64,000 bases of DNA from Acrocarpospora phusangensis (GTDB lineage Bacteria > Actinomycetota > Actinomycetes > Streptosporangiales > Streptosporangiaceae): assembly GCF_016862995.1 (NCBI RefSeq), contig NZ_BOOA01000005.1, positions 1 to 64,000 of the forward strand, given 5' to 3'. Numbering within the stretch: the stretch's first letter is position 1; each line of letters starts with the position of its first letter. Under the pieces are notes generated by a model, which worked only from the letters and a program-made list of their open reading frames with translations, had not been told where the DNA came from and ran no database searches. Shown here one piece after another: positions 4,736 through 21,094 of the stretch. Both the position numbers and the translations under genes were made by a program.

Positions 4736-4788
4736 CTCGTTCCTCTTGACAGCGGCACCCGACACTTTGCAGGGTGTGTAACACATTG

Positions 4789-4810
4789 CGGACTTGATGT
4801 ACGATAAATG
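4789..4810 (+). promoter_or_regulatory. Shared operator/promoter element, copy A
   Basis: Reads C-GGAC-TTGAT-GTAC-GATAAATG. It shares 15 of 21 positions with copies B (10796-10816) and C (13592-13613): GGAC, N5, GT-C, then GATAAATG. The GGAC/GTMC arms form an inverted repeat with a 5-bp spacer. The following GATAAAT could be a -10 element for the CoA-transferase operon, which would make the ATG at 4808 part of the promoter and not a start codon. Regulatory function is inferred from the repetition; the regulator is unknown. Confidence 0.6.
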
Positions 4811-4846
4811 CGAAATTTCATCATGGCAAGCTTCTGTGGGGGTCAC

Positions 4847-5641
4847 GTGCCGGACACGACTTACACCTGGGCCGAGATGATGGCGATCTCCATCGCGCAC
4901 GAGATGGCCGACGGCGACTTCGGTTCCGTGGGCGCCGCCTCGCACATCCCCGTCGCCGGGCTGCGGCTCGCGCAGCTCACCCACGCGCCGAACCTGTCCT
5001 TCTTCTGTGGCGGCAGCGGCGCGATGAACCCGAAGATGCGGCGGCTCACCGAGTCCTCCGCCGACTACCGCAACCTGGTGACCAGCGAGTACCAGTTCAG
5101 CCTCGACGACGTGGTGGACTTCGAGACCGCGATCAAGTTCGACTTCGCGTTCCTGGGCGGCATGCAGATCGACAAACACGGCAATCTCAACATGGCAGTG
5201 ATCGGCCCGTGGGAGAAGCCCAAAGTGCGCGGACCTGGCACGATCGGGCTCATCTTCCTGGGCGGCTTCAAGACCAGCTACATCTACACCGAGCACCACT
5301 CGCCGAGGATCTTCGTCGACAAGGTGGACTTCGTCAGCGGCGCGGGCTGGCTGGACGGCGGCGACTCCCGCGGCAAGGTCTTCCGCCCCGAGTCCGACGG
5401 GCCCCGCCGGGTGTTCACCCCGCTGGGGGTGTTCGACTTCGAGCCGGAGAGCCGCCGGATGCGCCTCATCAAGGTGCACCCGTGGAGCAGCATCGAGCAG
5501 ATCAAGGCGGCCACCGGATTCGAGCTGCTCATCGCCGACGACGTGACGACCGTCGAGCCGCCGACCGACGAGGAGCTGCGCCTGCTGCGCACCGAGGTCG
5601 ACACCGACGGCGTGCTGCGCCGCTACCCCGCCACCGCATGA
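4847..5641 (+). CDS. CoA-transferase subunit B (IpdB-like)
   Basis: The beta subunit of a class I CoA-transferase-fold enzyme, about 264 residues. Recognisable blocks are YTWAEMMAISIAHEMADGD, VGAASHIPVAGLRLAQLTHAPN, FCGGSGAMNP and a terminal EELRLLRTEV. Its partner subunit A is separated from it by three genes (8891-9772). I do not see the canonical S-E-N-G motif carrying the catalytic glutamate of ordinary class I beta subunits, which resembles the atypical IpdAB ring-opening hydrolase of steroid catabolism. I chose the GTG at 4847 because GTGGGGG lies 5 bp upstream and family N-termini begin here. ATGs at 4823 and 4808 are in frame, but the latter falls inside the putative -10. It overlaps the next gene by ATGA. 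Confidence 0.85.
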   Translation: MPDTTYTWAEMMAISIAHEMADGDFGSVGAASHIPVAGLRLAQLTHAPNLSFFCGGSGAMNPKMRRLTESSADYRNLVTSEYQFSLDDVVDFETAIKFDFAFLGGMQIDKHGNLNMAVIGPWEKPKVRGPGTIGLIFLGGFKTSYIYTEHHSPRIFVDKVDFVSGAGWLDGGDSRGKVFRPESDGPRRVFTPLGVFDFEPESRRMRLIKVHPWSSIEQIKAATGFELLIADDVTTVEPPTDEELRLLRTEVDTDGVLRRYPATA

Positions 5642-6498
5642 GCCACCGCATGAACGGCGTGCGGAGCCGCCGCGTCGTGGTGGACGGCTGCACCACCCAC
5701 TATTTGGAGGCAGGAGACGGCCCCCCGCTCATCCTGCTCCACGGCGGCGAGTACGGCGCCGCCGCCGAGATCACCTGGGAACACTGCCTCCCGGCCCTGG
5801 CCGCGCGCCACCGGGTGCTCGCCCTGGACTTCGTCGGCTACGGCCACAGCGCCAAGCTCCGCGACTTCGGCGGCCAGCGGCGCCTGATGCTCCGCCAGGT
5901 CACCGGCGTGCTGCGCACCCTCGGCATCGACTCCGCGTCCTTCGTCGGCACCTCGCTCAGTGGCCGCATGCTGCTCGACGTGGCCAACGGCCCCGCGCCG
6001 GTCTGGCCGATCCGGCGCATGGTCGTGGCCGGGATCGGCCTGGCCGCCCCCGCCGCCGAGGCCCGCAAGGCGCTGGAGGACTTCGACGGCACCCTGGAAG
6101 GGCTGCGCCCGTCCATGGAGGTGCTCTTCCACGACCCGAGCCGGCGCGACAGCGAGGACTACCTGCGCCGCCGGTACGGCTTCGCCGCCATCCCCGGCGC
6201 GTGGGAGACCGCCGCCGCGGCGAACCTGCGCTCCCCGATCCGGCGCGGCGACAACCGCACGCACGTGCGCCCGCCCGCCCGGGACTACGGCGGCATCGCC
6301 GTACCCACCTGCCTGATCCGGGGGGAGCACGACCGGCTGGTGCCCGACGGCACCTGGCGGGAGCTGGCCGCGCAGATCCCCGGCGCGCGCACGGTCACCG
6401 TCGCCGGCAGCGGACACTACCCGCAGATCGAGCGCCCCGACGCGTTCACCGCCGCGGTGCTGGACTTCCTCGACTCGCCCGATTCGGAGGGATCATGA
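5638..6498 (+). CDS. Alpha/beta hydrolase (MhpC-like)
   Basis: A 286-residue alpha/beta hydrolase. The oxyanion motif HGG is at 35-37 and the nucleophile elbow GTSLSG places Ser106 at the turn. Asp232 lies in RGEHDRLVP and His260 in GSGHYPQIE, giving a complete Ser-Asp-His triad. The elbow has Ser where the usual second Gly of GxSxG sits. The ATG at 5638 overlaps the CoA-transferase TGA by 4 bp. An alternative ATG lies 12 bp downstream. The closest named model is the meta-cleavage C-C hydrolase MhpC, consistent with breakdown of a ring-fission product. Esterase or thioesterase activity is equally possible from sequence. Confidence 0.87.
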   Translation: MSHRMNGVRSRRVVVDGCTTHYLEAGDGPPLILLHGGEYGAAAEITWEHCLPALAARHRVLALDFVGYGHSAKLRDFGGQRRLMLRQVTGVLRTLGIDSASFVGTSLSGRMLLDVANGPAPVWPIRRMVVAGIGLAAPAAEARKALEDFDGTLEGLRPSMEVLFHDPSRRDSEDYLRRRYGFAAIPGAWETAAAANLRSPIRRGDNRTHVRPPARDYGGIAVPTCLIRGEHDRLVPDGTWRELAAQIPGARTVTVAGSGHYPQIERPDAFTAAVLDFLDSPDSEGS

Positions 6499-7301
6499 CA
6501 GTGGCGCGTTCTCCCCGCCCGGCGCAGGCCGGATCGGGCGTGCACCTGGAGTGCGGCGGCGGCCAGGGCCCGGCGGTGGTGTTCCTGCACGGTTCCGCCG
6601 CCTCGGGCGCGGTCTGGAAACCGGTCACCCGCGCGCTCGCCCGGCGGCGTCCCGACGCCGGCTGGCTCCTCGCCGACCTGCCCGGTCACGGCCGCTCCCG
6701 CTGGCAGCTGGACTACTCCCCGGACGGCTACGCCGACGCGGTGGCCGCCGCCATCCGCGAGCACGCCGACGGACGTCCGGTGCATCTCGTCGGCCACTCC
6801 CTCGGCGCGATGGTCGCGCTCGCCCTCGCGGACGGCACCCGGGGGGTCGTCCCGGCGTCCGTCCTGGTCCTGGCCATGAAGGTGAGCTGGACCGAGACGG
6901 AGCTGACCCGCCGCGCCGCGGCCGCGACCCGGCCGATCCGCGTCCTCCCCGCCCCGGAGCAGGCCCGCGAGCTGTTCGGGCGCATCTCCGGGATGGGCGC
7001 GGGCTTCACCGAGGACGACCTGGACAGCGGGATCGCCGTCACCGAGGGCGGATACCGGCTCTCCGGCGACCCCCGGATCACCGCCGCGCCCCCGGCCACC
7101 GCCGCGGAACTGGCCGCCCTGGCCGCCCGCGCCATCTGCCCCGTACGGCTGGCCTGCGGCGACCGCGACCCCGGCATCCGGTACGGAGACCTGGCCGACA
7201 CCCTCGGCCGCCCCGTCACCGTCCTGCCCGACACCGCGCACAACGCGCACATCGAGCACCCCGACCTGGTCGCCGAGCTGGTGGAACAGGCGCTCCGCTG
7301 A
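6495..7301 (+). CDS. Alpha/beta hydrolase
   Basis: A second alpha/beta hydrolase of 268 residues, only distantly similar to its neighbour. It has FLHGSAASGAVW (oxyanion region), LPGHGRS, and the classical elbow VGHSLGAM with nucleophile Ser102. CGDRDPG carries the likely acid Asp, and DTAHNAHIEHP contains the C-terminal His. The ATG at 6495 overlaps the preceding stop by 4 bp and GGAGG lies just upstream, so the two hydrolases are translationally coupled. Tandem non-identical hydrolases suggest two separate ester, lactone or C-C hydrolysis steps. It could also be a thioesterase acting on the CoA product of the following ligase. Confidence 0.87.
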   Translation: MTVARSPRPAQAGSGVHLECGGGQGPAVVFLHGSAASGAVWKPVTRALARRRPDAGWLLADLPGHGRSRWQLDYSPDGYADAVAAAIREHADGRPVHLVGHSLGAMVALALADGTRGVVPASVLVLAMKVSWTETELTRRAAAATRPIRVLPAPEQARELFGRISGMGAGFTEDDLDSGIAVTEGGYRLSGDPRITAAPPATAAELAALAARAICPVRLACGDRDPGIRYGDLADTLGRPVTVLPDTAHNAHIEHPDLVAELVEQALR

Positions 7302-7328
7302 CGCGAGCCGACGAGAACGGAAATCCTC

Positions 7329-8894
7329 ATGCGAATCGAGACCCTGCTGCGGCAGAACGCGGTCAGGCGCGGCGACCGGCTCGCCGTCATCTGCGACGAG
7401 CGGCGGCTGACCTGGGCCGAACTCGACCACGAGAGCGACCGCCTGGCCAACGCGCTGACCGCGCTGGGGTACCGCCCCCAGGAGCGGGTGGCGCTCGTGC
7501 TGGGCAACAGCCATCCCATCGTGACCGCCTGCTACGGCCTGTGGAAGATCAACCTGGTCGTGGTCGGCATCAACCCCAAGATGACCGCGCCGGAGATCAC
7601 CCGCATCCTGGCCCACTCGGGCGCGTCCGCGGTCATCTGCGACACCCCCGCCGCCGTCGAGGCGGCCGCCGCGCTGCCCGCCGTACGCGAGGTGTTCACC
7701 GTCGGCCTGGACGGCCCCGAGGGCGGCGGTCACCCGACGCTGGACCAGCTGATCGCCTCCGGCGATCCCACGCCCACCCCGGAGACCGGCAGTGGCGGCG
7801 ACCTGCGCTCGCTGCGCTACACCAGCGGCACCACCGGCTCGCCGAAGGGCTGCATGGCCACCCACGACCAGCAGCTCGCCCACACCGCCAACTACCTGGC
7901 CGAGATCGACGTGCCGCGCGGCGGCCCGACCTGGCTCTCGGTGCCGCTCACCCTGGGCGTCGGCGCGTCCTACGTGACCACCACCGCCTACCTGGGCGTC
8001 CCGCTGCTGCTGCGGCGGCGCTTCGACCCCGCGGCGTTCGTCCAGGACATCGCCACGTACGGCGTCGAGCACGCCTTCCTGGTCCCGACCATGCTGGTGG
8101 ACCTGGTCCGGGCGCTCCCCGGCCTGGACCTGCCCGCCGCCCGGAGCCTCAAGATGATCGGGTACGGCGGCGCGTCCATCTCCTGGAGCCTCATCCGATC
8201 CCTCACCGAGGCGCTCGGCCTGGACTTCTACCACGCCTTCGGCGCCACCGAGGCGGGCGGCTTCACGGCGCTGCTCACCCCCGACGACCACCGCAACTTC
8301 CTGGACGCCGGGGCCACCTCCATCGTCCCGGTCGGCCGCCCGGCCGCGTACGCCGACGTCAAGATCTTCGACCAGGACGACCGCGAGGTGCCCGTCCGGG
8401 AGACGGGGGAGATGCGGATCAGGGCGGCCAGCGTCTTCTCCGGCTACTGGAGCCAGCCCGAGCTGACCGGCCAGGTGCTCAAGGACGGCTGGCTGCGCCT
8501 GGGCGACATCGCCTGGCGGGACGAGCGCGGCTACATCTACCTGGCCGACCGGGCCCAGGGCGTGATCAGGTCCGGCGCCCAGAACGTGTACGCCGGCGAG
8601 GTGGAGGCGGTGCTCCAGGCCTGCCCCGGCGTCGCCAGGGCGGCGGTGGTCGGCGTGCCGCACGAACGGTTCGGCGAGTCGGTCCGGGCGCTGGTGCAGC
8701 GCGTGCCGGGCGGCGACCTGACCGAGGAGCAGGTGCTCGCCTACTGCGCCGACCGGCTGGCCGGCTACAAACGCCCCCGCGACGTGGAGTTCGTCGCCGA
8801 CCTGCCGGTGGACGAGGGCGGAAAGATCAGACGATCCGAGCTGAAGCGCCTGACCGGCGCGCTGCTCGGCGAGGCGACCGAGGAGGCGCGATGA
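7329..8894 (+). CDS. AMP-dependent acyl-CoA synthetase/ligase
   Basis: A 521-residue ANL-superfamily ligase that adenylates a carboxylic acid and transfers it to CoA. The P-loop YTSGTTGSPKG is at residues 164-174. The central GATEAGG motif, the hinge DGWLRLGDIAWRDE and the C-terminal GGKIRRSELK with the adenylation lysine are all present, so it looks complete. It starts 27 bp after the hydrolase and overlaps the CoA-transferase A gene by 4 bp. It is one of two ligases in the island, the other being at 17696-19372, implying that either the starting acid or a cleavage product must be activated twice. Substrate specificity cannot be read. Confidence 0.93.
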   Translation: MRIETLLRQNAVRRGDRLAVICDERRLTWAELDHESDRLANALTALGYRPQERVALVLGNSHPIVTACYGLWKINLVVVGINPKMTAPEITRILAHSGASAVICDTPAAVEAAAALPAVREVFTVGLDGPEGGGHPTLDQLIASGDPTPTPETGSGGDLRSLRYTSGTTGSPKGCMATHDQQLAHTANYLAEIDVPRGGPTWLSVPLTLGVGASYVTTTAYLGVPLLLRRRFDPAAFVQDIATYGVEHAFLVPTMLVDLVRALPGLDLPAARSLKMIGYGGASISWSLIRSLTEALGLDFYHAFGATEAGGFTALLTPDDHRNFLDAGATSIVPVGRPAAYADVKIFDQDDREVPVRETGEMRIRAASVFSGYWSQPELTGQVLKDGWLRLGDIAWRDERGYIYLADRAQGVIRSGAQNVYAGEVEAVLQACPGVARAAVVGVPHERFGESVRALVQRVPGGDLTEEQVLAYCADRLAGYKRPRDVEFVADLPVDEGGKIRRSELKRLTGALLGEATEEAR

Positions 8895-9772
8895 CCGCGA
8901 ACAAGGTGACGACCCCGGAGGAGGCGGTCGCCGGCATCCCCGACGGCGCCGTGCTCGCGCTCGGCGGGGTGCACTCGCACAACAGCCCGATGGCCCTGGT
9001 CAACGCGCTGATCCGGCGCGGCGTGCGGGACCTGGAGCTGATCCCGACCCCGAGCGCGGGCGCGCCGGTGGACATGCTCATCGCGGCCGGCTGCGTACGG
9101 CGGCTGCACGTGTCCTACGTCGGCCTGGAGTTCCTCGGCCTGGCCCCCAACTACCGCAGGGCCGCCGAGAACCAGACCATCGAGATCGTCGAAGGCGACG
9201 AGGCCTACATCGTGTACGGCTTCCGCGCCGGCGCCAGCCGCCTGCCCTTCCTGCCCCTGCCCCCGCTGTACGAGGGCACCGACCTGCCCAAGGTCAACCC
9301 GGACATCCGTACCGTGACCGACCCCTACACCGGCCGTACGGTCACCACGGTGCCCGCGCTGCGCGCGGACTACGGCCTGTTCCACGCCCAGGTCACCGAC
9401 CGGAAGGGCAACGCGCAGATCTTCGGCCAGCGCCGCTTCGAGGACGTCATGGCCAAGGCCTGCGACCACGTCATCATCAGCTCGGACGAGATCCTGGACG
9501 AGTACGCCCCCGCGCCCGACCCCCGCCTGGTCTCCATCCCCGGAGCGATCGTGGACCAGGTCGCGCACGCCCCCTTCGGCGCGTACCCGCTCTCCTCCCC
9601 GGGCCACTACGGCTACGACCGGGACCGCCTGGTGGAGTACCGCGACCTGGCCGCCCAGGACCGCACCAAGGAGTATCTGGAGACGTACGTGCACTCCGTC
9701 GCCGACCATCAGGAGTTCCTGGAGAAGGTCGGCGTGAGGCGGCTGCTCGCCCTGCGCCAGACCTTCCGGTGA
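8891..9772 (+). CDS. CoA-transferase subunit A (IpdA-like)
   Basis: The alpha subunit of a class I CoA-transferase-fold enzyme, 293 residues. It has the glycine-rich LGGVHSHNSPMALVNALI near residues 24-41. An IEIVEGDEAYIVYGFRAG block around residues 98-114 carries Glu101 and Glu104 in the region where IpdA has its functional acidic residue. The ATG at 8891 overlaps the ligase stop (ATGA). It pairs with subunit B at 4847-5641, an unusual split arrangement because A and B genes are normally adjacent. It ends 1 bp before the convergent aldo/keto reductase stop, with no room for a terminator. IpdAB of Mycobacterium tuberculosis hydrolyses a ring in steroid breakdown; similar chemistry is an inference here. 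Confidence 0.87.
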   Translation: MTANKVTTPEEAVAGIPDGAVLALGGVHSHNSPMALVNALIRRGVRDLELIPTPSAGAPVDMLIAAGCVRRLHVSYVGLEFLGLAPNYRRAAENQTIEIVEGDEAYIVYGFRAGASRLPFLPLPPLYEGTDLPKVNPDIRTVTDPYTGRTVTTVPALRADYGLFHAQVTDRKGNAQIFGQRRFEDVMAKACDHVIISSDEILDEYAPAPDPRLVSIPGAIVDQVAHAPFGAYPLSSPGHYGYDRDRLVEYRDLAAQDRTKEYLETYVHSVADHQEFLEKVGVRRLLALRQTFR

Positions 9773-9773
9773 G

Positions 9774-10775
9774 TCACCAGGCGTAGGCCTCCGGCGCCGG
9801 GCCGGGCCCGGGGAAGATCTCGTCGAGCCTGGCCAGCGTCGCGTCGTCCAGCGTCACCTTGAAGGCCCGCACGGCGGCGTCGAGCTGCGCCGTCGTGCGG
9901 GGGCCGATGATGGGCGCGGTCACGCCCGGCCGTCCCAGCAGCCAGGCCATGGCCACGTCCGCGGGGTCCTCGCCCAGCTCCGCGCACAGGTCCTCGTACG
10001 CCTGGATCTCGGCGCGGTGCCGGTCCAGCTTGACCATGCGGCGGCTCCGGTGGGGCGCCATGCCGGCTCCGGGCAGTGGCGCGCCCAGCCGGTTCTCGCG
10101 TTCCTTGCGCAGGATGCCGCCGAGCAGGCCGGCGTCCAGCGGGGACCACGGCATCATGCCCACGCCGTAGTGCCGGCAGGCGGGCAGCACCTCCAGTTCG
10201 GCGGTGCGTTCCAGCAGGTTGTAGACGGTCTGCTCGCTGACCAGGCCGAGGTGGCCGCGCCGGGCCGCGATCTCCTGGCCGCCGGCGATGTGCCAGGCGG
10301 GATGGTTGGAGGAGCCCACGTAGACGATCTTGCCCTGGGCCTTAAGGATCTCCATCGCCTCCCAGATCTCCTCCCAGGGCACGCTCCGGTCGATGTGGTG
10401 CGGCTGGTAGAGGTCGATGTGGTCGGTGCCGAGCCGGCGGAGCGAGTCCTCGCAGGCGCGCCGGATGTGCAGCGCGGACAGGCCGGAGTTGTTGGGCCAC
10501 TCGGCCATCCGGCCGTACAGCTTGGTGGCGAGCACGGTCTTGTCCCTGCGGCCGCCGCCGGTGGCCAGCCAGCGGCCGATGATCTGCTCGGTCAGGCCCT
10601 CGCCGAACCGCCAGCCGTACACGTTGGACGTGTCGATCACGTTGATGCCCAGCTCGTGGGCCCGATCCATGATCGCGAAGGCCTCCTCCTCGGTGGTCTG
10701 GGTGCCGAAGTTGTCGGTGCCGAGGACCAGCCGGCTGATCGTCAGACCGCTGCGGCCGAGGTTCGCGTACTCCAC
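9774..10775 (-). CDS. Aldo/keto reductase
   Basis: A 333-residue NADPH-dependent aldo/keto reductase. The N-terminus is VEYANLGRSGLTISRLVLGT. The catalytic tetrad region includes GINVIDTSNVYG (Asp, Tyr), ATKLYG (Lys) and LYQPHHID (His). The C-terminal half has VGSSNHPAW and PIIGPRTTAQLDAAV, typical of cofactor binding. The GTG at 10775 has GGGAG six bases upstream and lies 20 bp beyond operator copy B. It is transcribed leftward from the divergent region 10776-10944 that also serves the aldehyde dehydrogenase. It probably reduces an aldehyde or ketone intermediate of the island; the substrate is unknown. Confidence 0.93.
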   Translation of the reverse strand: MEYANLGRSGLTISRLVLGTDNFGTQTTEEEAFAIMDRAHELGINVIDTSNVYGWRFGEGLTEQIIGRWLATGGGRRDKTVLATKLYGRMAEWPNNSGLSALHIRRACEDSLRRLGTDHIDLYQPHHIDRSVPWEEIWEAMEILKAQGKIVYVGSSNHPAWHIAGGQEIAARRGHLGLVSEQTVYNLLERTAELEVLPACRHYGVGMMPWSPLDAGLLGGILRKERENRLGAPLPGAGMAPHRSRRMVKLDRHRAEIQAYEDLCAELGEDPADVAMAWLLGRPGVTAPIIGPRTTAQLDAAVRAFKVTLDDATLARLDEIFPGPGPAPEAYAW

Positions 10776-10795
10776 GGAGGCTCCCTGATCAGTTT

Positions 10796-10816
10796 CATTT
10801 ATCGGACGATAAGTCC
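10796..10816 (-). promoter_or_regulatory. Shared operator/promoter element, copy B
   Basis: On the minus strand it reads GGAC-TTATC-GTCC-GATAAATG, exactly 20 bp before the GTG of the aldo/keto reductase, the same spacing as copy C to its gene. ACATAT lies just upstream of the left arm, as in copy C. On the plus strand the same palindrome is followed by TATATG, which could serve the divergent aldehyde dehydrogenase. One bound dimer could therefore control both directions. Confidence 0.65.
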
Positions 10817-10944
10817 TATATGTAAGAGTCCGATGGTAACGTTGGCGGGGAGCCGAGGCAAAGCACGCTGCGCTCCTTTCGTAGCGGAACAGGCAGCGGA
10901 CGCTCTTGGGCCCTGGCACAGAATCCGCCTGAGGAGAGCAGTCG

Positions 10945-12438
10945 TTGAGCACAAACCTCGCCGCGCACATCGCCACCGCCGCCCTCCCGGCGGCCCACAG
11001 TTTCGTCTCGGGCACGCTCCGCCACGGCGGCGGACGCGAGTTCACCACCGGCCATCCCGGCGACGGCTCCCCGCTGGCCGTCGTCCAGGAGGCCACCCCC
11101 GAACTGGTGGACCTGGCGGTGCGCGAGGCCGCCGCCGCCCAGCCGGCCTGGGCCGCCACCTCGCCGCACCAGCGGGCCCGCGTCCTGCGCGCCGCCGCCG
11201 ACCTCGTCGAGGCCCAGTCCGTACGGCTGGCGCACCTGGTCACCCTGGACAACGGCAAGACCCTGGCCGAGGCCCACGGCGAGGTGGCGGTGGCCGCGGC
11301 CCACCTGCGCGCCGCGGCCGGCTGGGCAGCCACCCTGGAGGGGAGCACGCTGCCCATGGACGGCGGCACGCTCCGGATGGTCTTCCGGGAGCCGGTCGGC
11401 GTGGTCGCCGCCATCATCCCGTTCAACACCACACTCGTGTTCGCCGCGCAGAAGGCCGGGCCCGCGCTGGCCGCCGGCAACGCCGTCCTGCTCAAGGCGC
11501 CCGAGCTGAGCCCGCTGGCCGCCCCCGTGTTCGCCGGGCTGCTCACCGAGGCGGGCTTACCGGCAGGGCTGCTCCAGGTGCTCCAGGGCACCGGCGACAC
11601 CGGCCGGCGGCTGGCCGGGCATCCCGCGGTCACCATGGTCTCCTTCACCGGCAGCACCGCCGTCGGCCGCCAGGTCATGCGCTCGGCCGCCGACGGCATG
11701 AAACGGGTCCTGCTCGAACTGGGCGGCAAGTCCGCCAACATCGTGTACGCCGACGCCGACCTGGACGCCGCCCTGCACGCCACGGTCGGCGGCATCTTCC
11801 GCAACGCCGGGCAGCGCTGCTTCTCCGGCTCCCGGCTGCTGGTCGAGGAGCCGATCGCGGAGGAGTTCACCGCCCGGGTGGTGGAGCTGGCCCGCTCGAT
11901 CAGGGTGGGCCCGCCGTTCGACCCCGGCAGCCAGCTCGGCACGCTCATCTCGGCCGCCGAGGCCGAACGCGTGCACGTGATGGTCGAGGAGGCCGTCGGC
12001 CAGGGCGCCAAGGTGCTGACCGGCGGCGACCGCCCGCCGGGGCTGCACCCGGACGGCGCGTTCTACGCCCCCACCGTGCTGGAGATCCCGGGGAGCCCGC
12101 CCGACATCGTCTACCAGGAGGTGTTCGGCCCGGTCCTGACGGTCCAGCGGTTCGGCGGCGCGGAACAGGCGGTCGCGCTGGCCAACGACTCGCCGTTCGG
12201 CCTGGTCGGGGGCTGCTGGACGCGCGACCTGGACCGGGCGCTGACCACCGCCCGGCAGGTCAGGTCCGGATATTTCTGGATCAACTCCTACGGCGCGCTG
12301 GCGCTGGACGCGCCCATCGGCGGCGTCGGCCTGTCCGGCGTCGGCCGGGAGCTGGGCCGCGTCGGCCACGAGGCCTACACCGAGACCAAGTCCGTGATCA
12401 TCGACACCGCCTCGGCCGCCGCGCCGCGCTGGTTCTGA
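10945..12438 (+). CDS. Aldehyde dehydrogenase family protein
   Basis: A 497-residue NAD(P)-dependent aldehyde dehydrogenase with the full active-site set. Asn161 is in IIPFNTT, Lys184 in LLKAPELSP, the general-base Glu258 in LELGGKSAN and catalytic Cys292 in NAGQRCFSG. FTGSTAVG supplies the coenzyme loop and EVFGPVL the C-terminal signature. The TTG start at 10945 has GAGGAG eight bases upstream. It is divergent from the aldo/keto reductase and followed 19 bp later by the alcohol dehydrogenase. The pair could take an alcohol to an acid for activation by one of the CoA ligases. The actual aldehyde is not known. Confidence 0.95.
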   Translation: MSTNLAAHIATAALPAAHSFVSGTLRHGGGREFTTGHPGDGSPLAVVQEATPELVDLAVREAAAAQPAWAATSPHQRARVLRAAADLVEAQSVRLAHLVTLDNGKTLAEAHGEVAVAAAHLRAAAGWAATLEGSTLPMDGGTLRMVFREPVGVVAAIIPFNTTLVFAAQKAGPALAAGNAVLLKAPELSPLAAPVFAGLLTEAGLPAGLLQVLQGTGDTGRRLAGHPAVTMVSFTGSTAVGRQVMRSAADGMKRVLLELGGKSANIVYADADLDAALHATVGGIFRNAGQRCFSGSRLLVEEPIAEEFTARVVELARSIRVGPPFDPGSQLGTLISAAEAERVHVMVEEAVGQGAKVLTGGDRPPGLHPDGAFYAPTVLEIPGSPPDIVYQEVFGPVLTVQRFGGAEQAVALANDSPFGLVGGCWTRDLDRALTTARQVRSGYFWINSYGALALDAPIGGVGLSGVGRELGRVGHEAYTETKSVIIDTASAAAPRWF

Positions 12439-12457
12439 CCCATGAACAGGAGACGCC

Positions 12458-13543
12458 ATGCCCGCCTACTACCGAGGCGCCGTCGCCAGGACCGCGCACG
12501 GGCCCCTGCGCATCGAGGACATCCCGGCCCGCGATCCGGCGGGCGACGAGGTGCTGATCGAGGTGACCGCCTGCGGCCTGTGCCACAGCGACGTGCACTT
12601 CATGCACGGCACGTCGGGCACCGACTTTCCGTACCTGGTGGGGCACGAGGTGGCCGGGCGGGTGGCGGGGCTCGGGCCGGACGCCACGGGCCTGCGCGTC
12701 GGCGACAGCGTGGTGGTCGCGCCGATGGTGGCGTGCGGGCGGTGCCGGCAGTGCGCGGCGGGCCGCCCCCAGGGATGCCCCGACCGGCTGCCGAGACGGC
12801 CGAAGGTGCCCCTGGGCGACGGCGTGGAGGCGACCGCCGTGCTGGGGGTGGGCGGGCTCGCCGAGCGGGTCGTCGTGCCGGCCCGGCAGGCCGTGGCGAT
12901 CGACCCCCGGGTTCCCTCGCGGGTCGCGGCGCTGCTCGGGTGCGGCGTGCCGAGCGGGTTCGGGGCCGCCGTGAACACCGCGGCGGTCGGCCCGGCCGAC
13001 GACGTGGTGGTGATCGGCTGCGGCGGGGTGGGCGTCGCGGCCGTCGCCGGGGCGGCCTACGCGGGCGCGCGGCGCATCATCGGCGTGGACGTCAACCCGG
13101 CCAAGCTCGAAGCGGCCCTGCGGTTCGGCGCCACCCACGTGGTGGACGCCTCCCGGGAGGAGACCGTGGCCCGGGTGAAGGAGCTGACCGACGGCCGGGG
13201 CGCCGACGTGGTGCTCGACGCGGTCGGCGGCCCCGGCTCCTTCGGCACCGCCGACGAGCTGCGCGGACCCGGCTCCCGGCTGGTGGTGGTGGGCGCGCCC
13301 CGGCAGGGCGACTCCGTCGAACTGCCCCTGCGCCGCCTCTTCCTGACCGGCGGCTCCATCCGCGTCTCGATCTGGGGCGACTGCGTGGCCGCCCGCGACC
13401 TGCCCCTGCTGGCCGAGCTGTTCCTGGCCGGGAAGCTCCCGCTGGAGGAGTACGTGAGCGGCGCCTACCCGCTCGACGACGCCCAGGCGGGCTACGACCG
13501 GCTGATCGCCGGGGACGCCCTGCGCGGCGTCGTGGTGCTGTGA
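12458..13543 (+). CDS. Zinc-binding alcohol dehydrogenase (MDR family)
   Basis: A 361-residue zinc-dependent medium-chain dehydrogenase. Catalytic-zinc ligands are Cys42 (GLCHSDVH) and His63 (GHEVAG). The structural-zinc lobe has Cys93, Cys96, Cys99 and Cys107. The Rossmann fold shows VIGCGGVGVAAVAGA near residue 188 and the acidic end IIGVDVN, suggesting NAD preference. The ATG follows AACAGGAGA. It is co-transcribed with the aldehyde dehydrogenase. The operon ends at 13543, and the next 90 bp hold operator copy C. It resembles actinobacterial NAD/mycothiol-dependent dehydrogenases only generally. Confidence 0.94.
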   Translation: MPAYYRGAVARTAHGPLRIEDIPARDPAGDEVLIEVTACGLCHSDVHFMHGTSGTDFPYLVGHEVAGRVAGLGPDATGLRVGDSVVVAPMVACGRCRQCAAGRPQGCPDRLPRRPKVPLGDGVEATAVLGVGGLAERVVVPARQAVAIDPRVPSRVAALLGCGVPSGFGAAVNTAAVGPADDVVVIGCGGVGVAAVAGAAYAGARRIIGVDVNPAKLEAALRFGATHVVDASREETVARVKELTDGRGADVVLDAVGGPGSFGTADELRGPGSRLVVVGAPRQGDSVELPLRRLFLTGGSIRVSIWGDCVAARDLPLLAELFLAGKLPLEEYVSGAYPLDDAQAGYDRLIAGDALRGVVVL

Positions 13544-13591
13544 CGCGGTTGACAGATCGGTACGAACCACCACACAATCAAAAACATATTT

Positions 13592-13613
13592 CGGACGACT
13601 TGTCCGATAAATG
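13592..13613 (+). promoter_or_regulatory. Shared operator/promoter element, copy C
   Basis: Reads C-GGAC-GACTT-GTCC-GATAAATG. With the preceding T it forms a perfect TCGGAC/GTCCGA inverted repeat around 5 bp. An upstream ACATATTTC block matches ACACATTGC at copy A with identical spacing. It lies 20 bp before the ATG at 13634 and probably controls the nine-gene operon 13634-22600. Confidence 0.65.
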
Positions 13614-13633
13614 AACAAGATCGAGGAGTGATG

Positions 13634-14134
13634 ATGGCGACAGCCGCTCTGCGCGCCCCGCGCTCGCTCAACCACATCGCCTACCCGACCTGGAACTCGC
13701 AGGTCACGCACGACTTCTACACCGAGGTGCTGAAGTGCGAGTTCCTGACCGCGATCCAGCTGGACGTGGTGCCGTCCAGCGGTGCGCGCACGCCGTACCT
13801 GCACACGTTCTTCGGCCTGAGCGACGGGAGCGCCATCGCCTTCTTCGAGGTGGAGGGGCTGCCGAACCCGGGGCCGGACGCGGTGCCGTCGTGGATCCGG
13901 CACATCGCGCTCAACGTGGACTCGATGGAGGAGCTCCACGCCTGGCAGGCGCACTTCACCGCCAAGGGCGTGGAGAGCGTCGGCGTCGTCGACCACGACG
14001 GGGTGTGGGAGTCGCTCTACATCTTCGACCCCAACGGCGTGCGGATCGAGCTGACCTTCCAGGCCCGCCCGCTCACCGAGGACGACGCCCGCGAGGGCGT
14101 GGAAACCCTGCGGAAGTGGAACGCGCGCGAGTAG
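13634..14134 (+). CDS. VOC family protein, possible small type I extradiol dioxygenase
   Basis: A 166-residue vicinal-oxygen-chelate protein built from two beta-alpha-beta modules. His14 (LNHIAYPT), His90 (IRHIALNV) and Glu139 (VRIELTF) occur at the three places where type I extradiol dioxygenases carry the iron-binding 2-His-1-carboxylate triad. The spacing of 76 and 49 residues is close to that family. FDPNGVRIEL is the usual C-terminal signature. I prefer the ATG at 13634, five bases after GAGGAG, over ATG 13631 or GTG 13628. As first gene of the operon, before a hydroxylase and a hydrolase, ring cleavage is attractive, but a glyoxalase- or isomerase-type role remains possible. Confidence 0.85.
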   Translation: MATAALRAPRSLNHIAYPTWNSQVTHDFYTEVLKCEFLTAIQLDVVPSSGARTPYLHTFFGLSDGSAIAFFEVEGLPNPGPDAVPSWIRHIALNVDSMEELHAWQAHFTAKGVESVGVVDHDGVWESLYIFDPNGVRIELTFQARPLTEDDAREGVETLRKWNARE

Positions 14135-14180
14135 CGCCCGGACCCCGTCCCGTTCGTGTACCGACCTTCAGGAGCCGCCC

Positions 14181-15314
14181 GTGCTGACCCGCGAACTACT
14201 TCCCGTACCGATGACGCCGGGCGGGCGCCTCGACATCAACTCGGGCGTCGCCCGGCTGAGCGGGAAGATCTGGGCCACCCTCTGGAAGGACGACCGGCGC
14301 CCGGCCGGCACCGCGGTGCTGATCGTGCACCCGTCCTCCAACTTCATCGGCCACTACGCGCTGGAGGAGCTGGCGTCCCGGGGGGTGGCCGCCGTCGGCC
14401 TGGCCACCCGGTACGTCGGCAACGACTCCGCGCTGATCATGGAGAACTGCGTCCTGGACGTGGGCGCGACAATCCGCCACCTGCGTGAACTGGGATACGA
14501 CCGGATCGTCCTGGTGGGCAACTCCGGCGGCGGCGGCCTGGCCGCGCTGTACCAGGCGCAGGCCGAGACGCCCACCATCACCCACACGCCCGCCGGCGAT
14601 CCGCTGGACCTGACCGCCGCCGGCCTGATCCCCGCCGACCGGGTCGTCATGGCCATGGCCCACCCGGGCCGCGCGGTGGTCTACACCGAAGGGCTCGACC
14701 CGGCCGTCAAGGACGAGCACCGGCCGTTCGACCGGGACCCGGAACTCGACATGTTCGACCCCGCCAACGGGCCGGCGTACAGCCCCGAGTTCGTGGCCCG
14801 CTACCGGCACGGCCAGCTCGACCGCAACCGCCGCATCACCGACTGGGCCCTGACGACGATCGGGGAGCTGCGCGACCGCGCGGCCGGGGGAGCGGGCCCC
14901 GACGACCTGCCCTTCGTCGTGCACGGCACCGCCGCCGACCCGCGCTTCCTGGACCTGGCCCTGGACCCCTCCGACCGGGTCGCCGGCACCCTGTGGGGCA
15001 GCCCGTGGGTGGCCAACTTCCAGCCCGCCTCGCTCGGCCACCTGACCAGCCTGCGCTCCTGGCTCAGCCAGTGGAGCTACGACCACAGCCGGGCCAACGC
15101 CTACCGGGAGCTGCCCGGCGTGAAGGCCCCCGTCATGGTCGTGTACGGCTCCGCCGACTGCGCCGCCTTCCCCAGCCACGCCCGCGGCATGTACGACGCC
15201 GTCACCCACGACCAGCGCGAACTGGTCGAGATCAAGGGCGCGGACCACTACTTCCAGGGCCGCCCCGACCTGGCCGCCGCCATGTGCGACCACATCGTCG
15301 AATGGGCCGGGTGA
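14181..15314 (+). CDS. Alpha/beta hydrolase
   Basis: A 377-residue alpha/beta hydrolase-fold protein. AVLIVHPSSNFIGHYALEEL begins the fold. The elbow VLVGNSGGGGLAALY places a Ser nucleophile in GNSGGG. VVYGSADCAAFP supplies a candidate acid Asp, and IKGADHYFQGRPD the catalytic His. The long insert between strands, with RPFDRDPELDMFDP, distinguishes it from the two smaller hydrolases at 5638-7301. The GTG at 14181 has AGGAG seven bases upstream. Its stop overlaps the monooxygenase start. It may open a lactone or cleave an acyl bond; no closer family name is justified. Confidence 0.82.
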   Translation: MLTRELLPVPMTPGGRLDINSGVARLSGKIWATLWKDDRRPAGTAVLIVHPSSNFIGHYALEELASRGVAAVGLATRYVGNDSALIMENCVLDVGATIRHLRELGYDRIVLVGNSGGGGLAALYQAQAETPTITHTPAGDPLDLTAAGLIPADRVVMAMAHPGRAVVYTEGLDPAVKDEHRPFDRDPELDMFDPANGPAYSPEFVARYRHGQLDRNRRITDWALTTIGELRDRAAGGAGPDDLPFVVHGTAADPRFLDLALDPSDRVAGTLWGSPWVANFQPASLGHLTSLRSWLSQWSYDHSRANAYRELPGVKAPVMVVYGSADCAAFPSHARGMYDAVTHDQRELVEIKGADHYFQGRPDLAAAMCDHIVEWAG

Positions 15315-16540
15315 TGGGCGTGCTCGACGTCGCCGTGGTGGGCGCCGGGCCGGTCGGGCTCACCGCCGCGCTGGCGCTGGCCGGGCGGGGGATCGCGGTC
15401 ACCGTCTTCGAGGAGGACGCGCTGCTCAGCACCGAGTGGCGGGCCTCCACCTTCCACCCGCCGACCCTGGAGATCGCCTGCGACCTCGGCATCGCCGACG
15501 CCATGCTGGCCGAGGGGCTGATCGCGCGGACGTACCAGATCAGGGACCGGCGGGACGGGCTGATCGCCGAGTTCGACTTCGGCCTGCTGGCCGACGAGAC
15601 CGACTACCCGTTCCGGCTCCAGCTGGAGCAGTACAAGTACACCCAGATCATCAGCGACATGCTGGGCGGCAGGCACCCGGAGGTCGGGGTGCGGATGGGC
15701 GAGGGCATCACGGGCGTCGCCCAGCACGCCGACGCCGCGGTGCTCACCACCGCCTCCGGGGAGCGGGTCGAGGCCCGCTGGGTGCTGGCCGCCGACGGCG
15801 CGCGCAGCACCGTCAGGAAGGCCCTGGGCACCAGCTTCGACGGCCTCACCTACGACCACCGCTACCTGGTGCTGAGCATCGACTACCCGGTTGAGACCCT
15901 GCTGCCGGGCATCTGCGCCGTCAATTACATCGCCGACCCCGACGAGCACCTGCTCATCCTGCGGACCCCGGACGTCTGGCGGGTCGTCGTCGCCGTACGG
16001 CCCGAGCTGCGCGCGGACGAGGTGCTCACCGACGCGTACGTGGCCGGGCGGCTGCGCGGCCTGTTCGGCGACCACCCGGAGCTGCCACTGCGGGAACGGA
16101 AGATCTACTCCGTGCACCAGCGGGTGGCCGGCAACTTCCGGCAGGACCGGGTGCTGTTGCTCGGCGACGCCGCGCACGTCAACAGCCCGATGGGCGGCAT
16201 GGGCCTCAACGGCGGCATCCACGACGCGTTCGACCTGTCCGTCCAGCTCGGCAAGGTGCTGCTGGACGGGGCGGGGCCGGAGGTGCTGGACGCCTGGGCG
16301 CACCGCCGCCGCAAGGCCGCGATCGAGGCGGTGCAGGAGCTCACCCACCGCACCACCACCGAGATGGCCGAGCAGGACGAGGCCGAGCGGCTCGGCTACC
16401 GGCGGCGCATGTCGGAGATCGCGGGCGACCCGGCGCTGGCCAAGGCGTGGATGCTGGACGCCGCGATGATCTCCAACGTGCGCGCCCACGGCCTGCCGCC
16501 CCGCCCGGCCGGGCGCGGGCCCGGAGCCGGAGCGAACTGA
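15314..16540 (+). CDS. FAD-dependent monooxygenase (aromatic hydroxylase type)
   Basis: A 408-residue class A flavoprotein monooxygenase. The N-terminal dinucleotide motif VVGAGPVGLTAALALAGRG is followed by the acid end VFEED. The middle has LAADGARSTVRK (DG motif) and the C-terminal half LLLGDAAHVNSPMGGMGLNGGIHDAFDL (GD motif). It looks like the PHBH / MhpA group that hydroxylates phenolic or related rings with NAD(P)H. The ATG at 15314 shares a base with the preceding TGA; a GTG at 15311 is the alternative. It overlaps the acyl-CoA dehydrogenase gene by 1 bp (TGATG). It is probably an early ring-hydroxylating step. Confidence 0.92.
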   Translation: MGVLDVAVVGAGPVGLTAALALAGRGIAVTVFEEDALLSTEWRASTFHPPTLEIACDLGIADAMLAEGLIARTYQIRDRRDGLIAEFDFGLLADETDYPFRLQLEQYKYTQIISDMLGGRHPEVGVRMGEGITGVAQHADAAVLTTASGERVEARWVLAADGARSTVRKALGTSFDGLTYDHRYLVLSIDYPVETLLPGICAVNYIADPDEHLLILRTPDVWRVVVAVRPELRADEVLTDAYVAGRLRGLFGDHPELPLRERKIYSVHQRVAGNFRQDRVLLLGDAAHVNSPMGGMGLNGGIHDAFDLSVQLGKVLLDGAGPEVLDAWAHRRRKAAIEAVQELTHRTTTEMAEQDEAERLGYRRRMSEIAGDPALAKAWMLDAAMISNVRAHGLPPRPAGRGPGAGAN

Positions 16541-17703
16541 TGGACTTCCAGCTCACCGACGAGCAGCGCGACATCCGCGACACCGCCCGCGCTTTCGTCA
16601 CCAAGGAACTGATGCCGCTGGAGGAGGCGTTCCTGCGGTCCGGGGCGGCCCGGCTGCCCCGCGCCCAGGAACGCGCCCTCCAGGACAAGGCCCGCTCGTT
16701 CGGCTTCTGGGGGATGAGCACCCCGGAGGAGTACGGCGGCATGGCGCTGCCCGCCCTCACCCAGTCCCTCATCCACATCGAACTGGCCAGGACCTGCCTG
16801 CCCTTCCGCTTCGGCGGCGAGGCCGACAACATCCTGTACGGCGCGGACGCCGCCCAGCAGGACGAATACCTGAAACCGACCATCGAGGGCCGCCGGCTCG
16901 GCTGCTTCGCGCTGACCGAACCCGGCGCGGGCTCCGACGTCTCGGCGATCCGCACCACCGCCCGGCGGGACGGCGCCGAGTGGGTGATCAACGGCCAGAA
17001 GACCTTCATCAGCAACGGCGACGAGGCCGACTACGCGATCGTCATCGCGGTCACCGACCCAGGAAACGACGCCCGCAAGGGCTCGACCGCGTTCCTGGTG
17101 GACCGCGACGCCGGGTGGACGTCCGCCCCGATCAGGACCATGGGCAGCTGGCACCAGCCGGCCACGCTCTTCTTCGACCAGGTCAGGGTGCCGGCCGCCA
17201 AGGTGCTCGGCGACGTGGGCGCCGGGTTCGACCTGGCCAAGCGCTGGATCGGCAGGGGCCGGCACGTGATCTCCGCGAACTGCGTCGGCATCGCGGAACG
17301 CTGCCTGCGGCTGGCGGTCGACTACGCCAACCTGCGCGAGACCTTCGGCCGCAGGATCGGCGAGAACCAGGCCGTGCAGTGGATGATCGCCGACTCGGAG
17401 ACCGAGCTGGAGGCGGCCCGCTGGCTCGCCCTGCGCGCTGCGTGGGACGTCGACCGCGGCGCCGACGCGCGGCACTCCGTCGCGATGGCCAAACTCTTCT
17501 GCTGCCAGATGGTAGGCCGGGTTGTCGACCGGGCCCTCCAGATCCACGGTGGCATGGGTTACACGAAGGAACTCCCGCTGGAGGGGTGGTATCGCGCCGT
17601 CCGCGCGATGCGGATCTACGAGGGGACGGATGAGGTCCAGAGGCTCATCCTCTCGCGAGACCTGTTGCGTGGGTTCACCCGGATAGGAGCTCACCTTGCC
17701 TGA
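16540..17703 (+). CDS. Acyl-CoA dehydrogenase
   Basis: A 387-residue flavoprotein that introduces a 2,3-double bond into an acyl-CoA. Family signatures are CFALTEPGAGSD (FAD/substrate loop), WVINGQKTFISNG, and HGGMGYTKELPLEGWYR. IYEGTDEVQRLILSR contains the catalytic Glu of the YEGT-x-E signature. The ATG at 16540 overlaps the monooxygenase TGA by one base. It overlaps the following ligase start by 8 bp if the TTG at 17696 is used. It supports beta-oxidation-like processing of a side chain or ring-opened CoA ester, feeding the MaoC hydratase two genes downstream. Confidence 0.95.
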   Translation: MDFQLTDEQRDIRDTARAFVTKELMPLEEAFLRSGAARLPRAQERALQDKARSFGFWGMSTPEEYGGMALPALTQSLIHIELARTCLPFRFGGEADNILYGADAAQQDEYLKPTIEGRRLGCFALTEPGAGSDVSAIRTTARRDGAEWVINGQKTFISNGDEADYAIVIAVTDPGNDARKGSTAFLVDRDAGWTSAPIRTMGSWHQPATLFFDQVRVPAAKVLGDVGAGFDLAKRWIGRGRHVISANCVGIAERCLRLAVDYANLRETFGRRIGENQAVQWMIADSETELEAARWLALRAAWDVDRGADARHSVAMAKLFCCQMVGRVVDRALQIHGGMGYTKELPLEGWYRAVRAMRIYEGTDEVQRLILSRDLLRGFTRIGAHLA

Positions 17704-19372
17704 GAACGTGGAGCCACTGATGACCGAACCACAGATGAGCGTGGCCGCCGCGTTGCGCGCGGCGGCGCTGGCGGCCAGCGACCGCCCCGCCATGATCCAG
17801 GGCGACCTGCGGCGGGGGTACCGCGAGCTGGAGGCCCGCGCCGAGCGGCTCGCCGCGGCGCTCGCCGCGCGGGGCGTAGGCCCCGGCTCGACCGTGGCCA
17901 TCGCCCTCTTCAACTCCTTCGAGTACGTGGAGACCGTCTACGCCGCGTTCAAGCTCGGCGCCCAGCCGGTCAACGTCAACTACCGCTACCGCGAGCGGGA
18001 ACTGCGGTACGTGCTGGAGTACACGGACGCGGCGGCGCTCGTCTACGACGTGAGCCTGGCCGACCGGATCCGCGGCGTCCTGCCCGACCTGGCCGCGCCG
18101 GTCGCCCTGTTCGAGGTGGGCGGCGACGCGGAGGCGTCGTTACCGGAGGCGCTGCCCTTCGAGCCGGCCGCCACCGAGACCGGCGCCGGGGTTCCCCGGG
18201 ACGGCGAGGACTCCCCGCACGGGATCATCCTGCTCACCGGCGGCACGACCGGCACGCCCAAGGGAGTGATCTGGGACCGTGACGGGCTGCTCGGGATCTT
18301 CACGTCGATCTTCCGCCAGCACGACCTGCCCACTCCCCGCACTCCGGCGGAGGTCGACAAGGCCGTCCGCGCGCTGCAGGAGAACGACCAGGTCCCCGTG
18401 GTGCTGCCGATGTCGCCCCTGATGCACGGGACGGGCTTCTTCAACTCGATGCGCACCCTGATGGGCGGGGGCACGCTCTGCTTCTGCGCCTCCCGCTCGC
18501 TGGACGCCGACGAGGTGTGGCAGACCGTGGAACGCCACGCGGTGACCGAGATGGTCATCGTCGGCGACGCCTTCGGCCGCCCGCTGGTGGCGGCGCTGGA
18601 GGCGGCCGAGCGCGCGGAACGCCCGTACGACCTGCGGAGCCTGCGGCGGATGACCAGCTCAGGGGTGCTGTGGAGCGCGGAGGTGAAACGGGAGCTCCTG
18701 CGCCGGGGCCGGGAGCTGACGCTGGTCGACAACATCTCCGCGTCGGAGGGCGGGCCGTTCGGCCTGGCGGAGGTGCGTTCCGTGGCCGACGTGGCCGACG
18801 GGCGCTTCTCGCTGGCCTCGGTGGCCCGGGTGCTGGACGAGCACGACCAGGACATCGAGCCGGGCACCGGCCAGGTGGGCGTGCTGGCCAGCGCGGGACC
18901 GCAGCCGGTCGGCTACCTGCACGACCCGGAGCGCACGGCCAGGATCTGGCGGACCATCGACGGCGTGCGCTACGCCGTGCCGGGCGACCTGGCCTCGCTG
19001 GACGCGGACGGGCGGCTCATCCTGCTGGGGCGCGGCGACGGCGTCGTCAACACCGGCGGGGAGAAGGTCTTCCCCGAGGAGGTCGAGCAGGCGCTGATCA
19101 CGCACCCGGCCGTGGACGACGCGATCGTGGTCGGCATCCCCGACCCGCGCTGGGGCCAGATCGTGACCGCCGTGGTCTCCCCGGAGGGCGCGCTGGACGA
19201 GGTGCCGGACGACGAGCTGATCCAGCACGTACGGGATCGGCTGGCCGCGTACAAGAGCCCGCGCCGGATCATCCGGGTGGACGTGGTCCCCCGTACGCCG
19301 GCGGGCAAGGCCAACCGCGCGCTCGCCCGGCAGTTGGTCACCGACCACACCCCGACAGAGGAGACAGCGTGA
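17696..19372 (+). CDS. AMP-dependent acyl-CoA synthetase/ligase
   Basis: A 558-residue ANL-superfamily ligase, paralogous to the one at 7329-8894. The phosphate-binding loop LLTGGTTGTPKGV replaces the more usual TSGTTG. The hinge PGDLASLDADGRLILLGRGD and terminal PRTPAGKANRALARQ with the catalytic Lys are intact. The TTG at 17696 has AGGAG six bases upstream; ATG at 17720 with GGAG before it is nearly as good. It overlaps the MaoC gene by 4 bp. It resembles actinobacterial fatty-acid or steroid side-chain CoA ligases such as the FadD19 type, so a bulky alicyclic or aromatic acid is plausible but unproven. Confidence 0.92.
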   Translation: MPENVEPLMTEPQMSVAAALRAAALAASDRPAMIQGDLRRGYRELEARAERLAAALAARGVGPGSTVAIALFNSFEYVETVYAAFKLGAQPVNVNYRYRERELRYVLEYTDAAALVYDVSLADRIRGVLPDLAAPVALFEVGGDAEASLPEALPFEPAATETGAGVPRDGEDSPHGIILLTGGTTGTPKGVIWDRDGLLGIFTSIFRQHDLPTPRTPAEVDKAVRALQENDQVPVVLPMSPLMHGTGFFNSMRTLMGGGTLCFCASRSLDADEVWQTVERHAVTEMVIVGDAFGRPLVAALEAAERAERPYDLRSLRRMTSSGVLWSAEVKRELLRRGRELTLVDNISASEGGPFGLAEVRSVADVADGRFSLASVARVLDEHDQDIEPGTGQVGVLASAGPQPVGYLHDPERTARIWRTIDGVRYAVPGDLASLDADGRLILLGRGDGVVNTGGEKVFPEEVEQALITHPAVDDAIVVGIPDPRWGQIVTAVVSPEGALDEVPDDELIQHVRDRLAAYKSPRRIIRVDVVPRTPAGKANRALARQLVTDHTPTEETA

Positions 19373-21079: not shown

Positions 21080-21094
21080 TTCCCAGGAGTTCAC

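Follow-up and report, generated by a model that had tools for sequence, protein, structure and literature searches.

Three copies of one element in a catabolic island

The window analysed here, the whole stretch of 64,000 nucleotides at the start of contig NZ_BOOA01000005.1 of Acrocarpospora phusangensis, contains a catabolic island in which a 21-bp element, GGAC-N5-GTMC-GATAAATG, recurs at three promoters. A pattern search of the window located exact copies at 4790-4810 on the forward strand (copy A), 10796-10816 on the reverse strand (copy B), and 13593-13613 on the forward strand (copy C). The original prediction had given copy B at the same coordinates and copies A and C each one base early, from 4789 and 13592. 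The 15 of 21 positions that it reported as identical in all three copies agreed with a count by eye, and the inverted-repeat arms and differing spacer that it described were seen as conserved arms, a variable N5 core, and dyad symmetry. These results confirm the three-copy observation.

Copy A precedes an operon whose first gene encodes a coenzyme A (CoA)-transferase subunit resembling glutaconate CoA-transferase (4847..5641, +; Pfam CoA_trans; 1poi_B, E = 3.5e-31), and whose remaining genes, following the gene order in relatives, encode two alpha/beta hydrolases, an acyl-CoA ligase, and an alpha-type CoA-transferase subunit (5638..9772, +). Copy B lies between an aldo-keto reductase gene (9774..10775, -) and a divergent pair encoding an aldehyde dehydrogenase and a zinc alcohol dehydrogenase (ALDH-ADH; 10945..13543, +). 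Copy C precedes the long operon C (13634..22600, +), which encodes a VOC protein, an alpha/beta hydrolase, a flavin adenine dinucleotide (FAD)-dependent monooxygenase, an acyl-CoA dehydrogenase, an acyl-CoA ligase, two MaoC-type proteins, an amidohydrolase, and a KstD-like FAD dehydrogenase, and ends with the gene of an IclR-family regulator (22661..23368, +), the predicted binder of these sites. Because the genes of operon C are closely spaced, we infer that they form one transcript. For the CoA-transferase, the best structural relatives were glutaconate CoA-transferase (1poi) and other CoA-transferase beta subunits, and for the FAD monooxygenase they were PnpA (6ain) and HspB (7da9); the third alpha/beta hydrolase gave weak, partial structural matches only.

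Copy B ends 20 bp from the GTG at 10775, and copy C ends 20 bp from the ATG at 13634 or 17 bp from the ATG at 13631, so that the 20-bp gap predicted for both holds for copy B, and for copy C only if translation starts at 13634. Copy A ends 12 bp before the ATG at 4823 or 36 bp before the GTG at 4847. The GTG is more likely the start, because the relative G127 lacks one base in this stretch, so that its upstream ATG is not in frame.

The element is confined to the island and conserved with it

When up to three mismatches were allowed, the window gave four matches, namely A, B, and C and, since copy C is near-palindromic, the same copy read in reverse. Shuffled windows gave a mean of 0.33 matches at this limit, and none of 100 reached four. 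In the organism's own genome (9,110,166 bases in 219 contigs), the exact copies were A, B, and C alone; the genome search proposed with the original prediction therefore returned no exact copies beyond the three promoter sites. With up to two mismatches, the same four matches and one on contig C146 were obtained, compared with one forward and one reverse match for the reversed control pattern. A longer palindromic pattern with up to three mismatches found A, B, and C alone in this genome, each on both strands (control, 2 + 2). Under a first-order Markov model, 6.6e-6 exact matches would be expected in the window and 9.4e-4 in the genome. The pattern was picked after the data had been seen, and conservation is the real test.

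In 297 genomes of the family, a sample from a larger group, the motif with up to one mismatch had at least one match in 20 genomes, and the control pattern matched in 4. Three matches were seen in nine genomes (G000, G027, G079, G127, G148, G186, G187, G236, and G274) and two in G182, and the ten other genomes had a single one-mismatch match each. An orthologue of the IclR protein (E up to 1e-60) was found in 10 of the 297 genomes, as was an orthologue of the CoA-transferase, and these are the same ten genomes that carry at least two motif copies. G106, which belongs to the same genus, has neither orthologue and does not reach two motif copies.

A scan of named genomes returned 15 loci, 14 of them orthologous (63-96% best-segment identity); the remaining one (L104, 26% identity) was dropped as a non-orthologue. 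Nine of the 14 correspond to genomes already among those sampled. The island holders are Acrocarpospora corrugata, A. pleiomorpha, and A. macrocephala, Herbidospora yilanensis, Nonomuraea glycinis, N. longispora, and N. fuscirosea, a Microbispora, and an Actinomadura, to which the scan added Nonomuraea rhizosphaerae (L098), Pseudonocardia thermophila (L099), and three Phytohabitans (L100, L101, and L103). Sites were found in L099, L100, L101, and L103.

Nine genomes (the window and eight relatives) share a standard layout, with the same order of the genes read and operators at the same three promoters, except that G274 has no acyl-CoA dehydrogenase match and that the four leftmost genes lie outside the stretch read in G079 and G127. 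Operator A is present in 9 of 9 of these islands, a site stands at the operator B promoter in all 11 islands in which the aldo-keto reductase gene was found, and a site stands at the operator C promoter in all 14 in which the VOC gene was found. No separate site A was found in G182 or in the three Phytohabitans loci, where the operon A genes are fused to the VOC operon.

The rearranged islands keep the sites with iclR. G182, the Actinomadura, has partly fused operons, and a site stands in the gap where iclR and the VOC operon diverge; others precede the aldo-keto reductase gene and a periplasmic binding protein gene that the KstD-like gene follows, and the open frame behind another site, at 81669, has no Pfam match. 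In the three Phytohabitans, iclR comes immediately before the VOC operon, again with a site in between. For Pseudonocardia thermophila, sites are present at B and C, and iclR is still at the end of operon C. Sites thus stand at the same promoters in up to seven genera. These results largely support a regulon, as read from co-occurrence and conservation.

Two further features of the loci were recorded. A DUF6282 protein (PF19799, 229.7 bits) is encoded at 3842-4735 (-), divergent from operon A, and its gene was found at every island locus that was read, apart from G182, L099, and L098, which is truncated. In addition, some genes align in two pieces in different frames, namely the acyl-CoA ligase gene of Pseudonocardia (L099:5768-7373), those of an HpaI-type aldolase and a ligase in P. 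flavus (L101:8752-9452 and 16139-17655), and those of IclR and the CoA-transferase subunits in P. suffuscus (L103:10001-10650 and 13848-18725), which may reflect either sequencing errors or decay.

Proposed operator architecture and a fourth site

Aligned over the islands, the 21-mer is the core of a predicted operator of about 35 bp. Operator A (4779..4813, +), which reads TAACACATTGCGGAC-TTGAT-GTACGATAAATGCGA, holds the 21-mer at 4790-4810, and operators B (10793..10827, -) and C (13582..13616, +) hold those at 10796-10816 and 13593-13613, respectively. The 36 aligned sites (29 distinct 35-mers) show near-invariant GGAC and GT(C/A)CGATA around a variable 5-nucleotide centre; an outer CA and TG are common, and the overall dyad symmetry amounts to 6-12 of 15 pairs. 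A matrix trained on 8 distinct sites, from Actinomadura, Pseudonocardia, and Phytohabitans only, gave its three highest scores in the window to C, B, and A (45.1, 39.4, and 34.6, respectively), compared with 9.2 for the next match and a maximum of 14.3 in 100 random windows. This matrix from the distant genera is the held-out test; the matrix that found the fourth site described below was built from the 36 aligned sites and scores its own training sites.

The downstream 17 bp of the operators were compared with the group-1 consensus of the IclR family, TGTYCRYW3RYGRACA, as given in the main text of PMC8222616. Operator C matches it at 16 of 17 positions, the fourth site, D, at 15, B at 13, and A at 12, so that A and B are partial matches; 79 of the 63,984 17-mers in the window reach 12 of 17, and site C alone reaches 16. 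Because of this match, GTMCGAT is best read as one half-site, TAA as an A/T spacer, and ATG(R) as the first bases of a converging half-site; the GATAAATG tail would accordingly comprise the spacer and the beginning of the second half-site. GGAC is likely, if weakly, the near half-site of a second palindrome centred 20 nucleotides upstream. The possible palindrome centres fall at operator columns 8 and 28.

The matrix search revealed site D in six relatives (G027, G148, G186, G187, G236, and G274). It precedes an operon, annotated in G027, that encodes an oligopeptide-type ATP-binding cassette (ABC) transporter, a family III CoA-transferase, an amidohydrolase, and others. The window opens at the edge of a contig, and in the alignment with G027 its first bases fall at the end of the site-D operon; in the organism's own genome, site D and the first transporter gene are on contig C42. 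The pattern GTCCVATTATCGGAC with up to one mismatch occurs once in this genome, at C42:68442-68456 (control, 0 + 1), and the downstream palindrome of site D is nearly complete and PobR-like, GTCCAATTATCGGAC. In the relatives, the conserved left part of the island comprises the ABC transporter, the family III CoA-transferase, the amidohydrolase, a Meth_synt_2-like protein, a solute-binding protein, and an SDR protein.

The site on C42 also brings in another regulator. The stretch of C42 at about 66,900-69,450 holds, besides the first transporter gene, a PucR regulator gene (about 66,923-68,227, -; 89% identity) that adjoins site D. Operator D separates the PucR gene (L073:840-2168, -) from the ABC operon, and the two diverge; the PucR gene lies at the far end of the island in G027, G148, G186, G187, and G236. 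The original prediction that IclR is the only regulator of the island therefore stands at most for the part within the window. Among the island proteins scanned for families, a subset of the conserved frames, IclR and PucR were the only regulators.

It is conceivable that the sites are read by this PucR protein and that IclR controls something else. The position of PucR beside site D and in five relatives' islands would fit this, as would the matches in two Phytohabitans genomes, about 17-18 kb from iclR (52-59% identity, one in two pieces), and a third Phytohabitans match (55%) on a contig not matched to L100. Conversely, G274 keeps sites A-D, and a search of its whole genome at E up to 1e-60 gave no match to PucR; G182 and Pseudonocardia keep their sites with only 40% PucR matches, which in G182 lie about 210 kb from iclR. 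All islands in which these sites were aligned contain IclR, and the half-sites fit the IclR consensus published in the main text of PMC8222616. We consider a PucR reader very unlikely.

A large SARP/AfsR-like regulator is encoded just beyond iclR (23967-28115, +). As a reader of the sites it was rejected: at E up to 1e-10 it had no match in the sequence read from nine relatives, although only in G027, G182, G186, and G274 does this sequence extend at least 10 kb beyond iclR.

The IclR protein and the promoters

The regulator encoded at the end of operon C is an IclR-family protein, with an N-terminal PF09339 (HTH_IclR) domain (46.8 bits; cut-off 22) and a C-terminal PF01614 (IclR_C) domain (39.1 bits; cut-off 24; best stretch, residues 90-160), and its relatives in the Protein Data Bank include TtgV (2xrn). 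All 15 distinct orthologues share its recognition helix, HRQAVYR, without a change, and neither any of 16 paralogues nor L104 has it. Part of this helix served as a search word in the scan of named genomes, so that the loci from that scan are biased in this respect; the ten family genomes are not.

Related GNAC-N5/6-GTNCGAT sites with up to two mismatches were seen near the regulators' own genes at some of the 16 paralogue loci, a tally made with no chance control. At L038:2344, L042:2260, L051:2204, and L053:1245, sites that resemble GGAC-N6-GTCCGATATKCGGAC or are related to it stand close to iclR paralogues (40-47% identity), which suggests a wider subfamily with the same operator plan at 6-nucleotide spacing.

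For operator C, a -35 element, TTGACA (13549..13554, +), is followed after 18 bp by a -10-like element, CACAAT (13573..13578, +; 4 of 6 consensus positions), which ends 3 bp before the operator. TTGAC is found 24-27 bp before operator C in 14 of 14 genomes, and the -10-like box reads (C/G)A(C/G)AAT in the 9 closer genomes and matches at 2-3 of 6 positions in the 5 distant ones. For operator A, a possible -35 element, TTGACA (4746..4751, +), is kept in 9 of 9 genomes, with TTGAC 23-27 bp before the operator in eight and 15 bp before it in G148. For operator B, a weaker TTGCCT/TTTACC...TACCAT unit was noted by eye from the alignment, with TACCAT in 7 of 11 genomes. For site D, the upstream element reads TTGACG, and TTGAC stands 27-28 bp before the operator in the 6 of 7 cases counted, the row of G274 being left out as out of register. 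At C, where the promoter is clear, and likely at D, the operator overlies the predicted start region, a placement that favours repression.

The same promoter features bear on whether the repeats are protein-binding sites at all, or instead a spread mobile repeat, a sigma-factor promoter element with GATAAATG as its -10 box, or chance. GATAAT/GATAAA does resemble a -10 box, and the bare arms are not enriched in the window. Upstream of operator C, TTGACA-N18-CACAAT fits better than a reading of GATAAATG as a -10 box, which was rejected for that promoter, and TTGACA-N18-(C/G)A(C/G)AAT recurs there in the nine closer genomes. Moreover, no further copies were found in 9.1 Mb at the limits used except the one two-mismatch match on C146, the core is variable between conserved arms with dyad symmetry, and the promoters that carry the sites are the same across genera. 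A non-operator origin is extremely improbable.

An alternative with respect to the sign of control is that IclR binds the sites as an activator, as do PcaU and PobR, which are activators, or as a dual regulator. Among the half-sites tabulated in the main text of PMC8222616, those of PobR and PcaU come closest to the ones here, and the protein gives a match to the PcaR/PcaU/PobR model TIGR02431, at 58.1 bits far below the cut-off of 284.75, although the best model below its cut-off is BhcR (64.8 versus 350). Against activation, 3 bp separate the -10-like element from operator C in this genome, and a protein bound there, over the predicted start region, should stand in the way of RNA polymerase. 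Activation or dual control is unlikely.

A probable auto-regulated IclR regulon

Taken together, the element is, with high probability, the operator of the island's own IclR regulator (22661-23368), most likely acting in an auto-regulated repression that would be relieved by a pathway metabolite. The sites are conserved, are confined to the island at the mismatch limits used, and go with IclR, whose gene is the last of operon C, a layout that would fit an IclR protein in control of its own operon and one or a few next to it; we infer binding by IclR, a tetramer, repression, and an inducer. That IclR reads the sites, as originally predicted, is likely from the co-occurrence in the same 10 of 297 genomes, the rearranged islands, and the match to the consensus in the main text of PMC8222616.

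The operator would consist of two tandem IclR palindromes of the half-sites GTCCGAT/ATCGGAC with centres 20 nucleotides apart, an arrangement that would suit a dimer of dimers, and in A-C the inner half-sites (GGAC-N5-GTMC) would be strongest and the outer ones reduced. Without inducer, IclR would sit just downstream of the -10 region, clearly at C and likely at D, and would block the catabolic operons, the uptake operon at D, and its own gene. The substrate or an intermediate would then release it.

Several observations weigh against this reading or parts of it. Co-occurrence alone would also fit another reader, as motif and IclR are in one island, and a PucR gene adjoins site D in the own genome and is present in five relatives' islands. 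The tandem, dimer-of-dimers arrangement is plausible but largely conjectural, with outer half-sites weak in A-C and the left palindrome pairing at 0-5 of 7, and a strict IclR group-2 motif was rejected, the boxes being 5 nucleotides apart in the 36 aligned sites rather than the 3-4 given in the main text of PMC8222616. With up to one mismatch, the arms CGGAC-N5-GTCCG by themselves are not enriched in the window (12 matches versus 15.35 expected), so that alone they are not specific. No good -10 element was found at promoter A among nine genomes (1-2 of 6 positions), and no TTGAC was found upstream of operator B in 11 of 11 genomes. Finally, L098 carries the orthologue with no site found, on a contig that begins inside operon C, and in L103 (Phytohabitans suffuscus) iclR aligns in two pieces in different frames while the site is kept.

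For the proposed IclR regulon, the four transcription units of the original prediction reduce to three clear operator-operon pairs; as to a fourth, control of the divergent amidohydrolase gene is possible, as is control of the divergent ALDH-ADH unit by operator B. A single local regulon with a shared operator is supported by the co-occurrence, and it gains an operon outside the window through site D.

The result is a local, probably auto-regulated IclR regulon, a kind of circuit that is already known and of which this is a clear but ordinary case. It provides a defined operator, a small target set, and a named candidate regulator for a catabolic island of soil actinomycetes that is common to Acrocarpospora, Herbidospora, Microbispora, and Nonomuraea, with other layouts in Actinomadura, Pseudonocardia, and Phytohabitans. 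Through site D an uptake operon is linked with the catabolic ones, and the search for the substrate should profit from this link. In the literature searched, no paper joined Acrocarpospora and IclR; Streptosporangium, Nonomuraea, and Pseudonocardia are absent from the main text of PMC8222616; and, among the matches listed for the half-site letters, those judged by title and the start of the abstract look unrelated and are probably primers.

Comparison with known IclR-family operators

The operators A-C share the order of a GRAC and then a GTYC box with the IclR group-2 motif, TGRAACA-N1-2-TGTTYCA, in which the main text of PMC8222616 gives 3-4 nucleotides between the boxes. The sites differ from it in having 5 nucleotides between the boxes and no conserved A and T flanking the spacer. 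Tandem palindromic IclR sites, with centres 18-22 nucleotides apart, are described there for 94 orthologous groups; the likeness lies in the two possible centres 20 nucleotides apart, and the difference in the weak outer half-sites of A-C.

The PobR and PcaU operators of Acinetobacter baylyi (PMC8222616, main text) have the half-site TTGTCCGAT in common with those described here, and the downstream half of site D, TTTTGTCCAATTATCGGACA, closely resembles the PobR motif TTGTCCGATSATCGGACAR. For PobR, PcaU, and HmgR, the same text describes more than two boxes that alternate in direction. In A-C, by contrast, the best-conserved pair faces outward (GGAC-N5-GTCC) and the converging box is reduced to ATGRA(C) or less, and the IclR protein itself falls far short of the PcaR/PcaU/PobR model.

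One IclR protein may, as a tentative possibility that we would not favour at present, use two pairings of the same half-site, outward (GGAC-N5-GTCC) at A-C and converging (GTCC-AATTATC-GGAC) at D. If so, site D possibly differs from A-C in the strength or sign of control. Two alternative dimerisation modes have been proposed for the IclR family by Suvorova and Gelfand (PMC8222616, main text), and two pairings in one regulon would make a natural test case for them. The contrast between A-C and D is the most interesting residue of the comparison and bears on how IclR proteins pair their half-sites.

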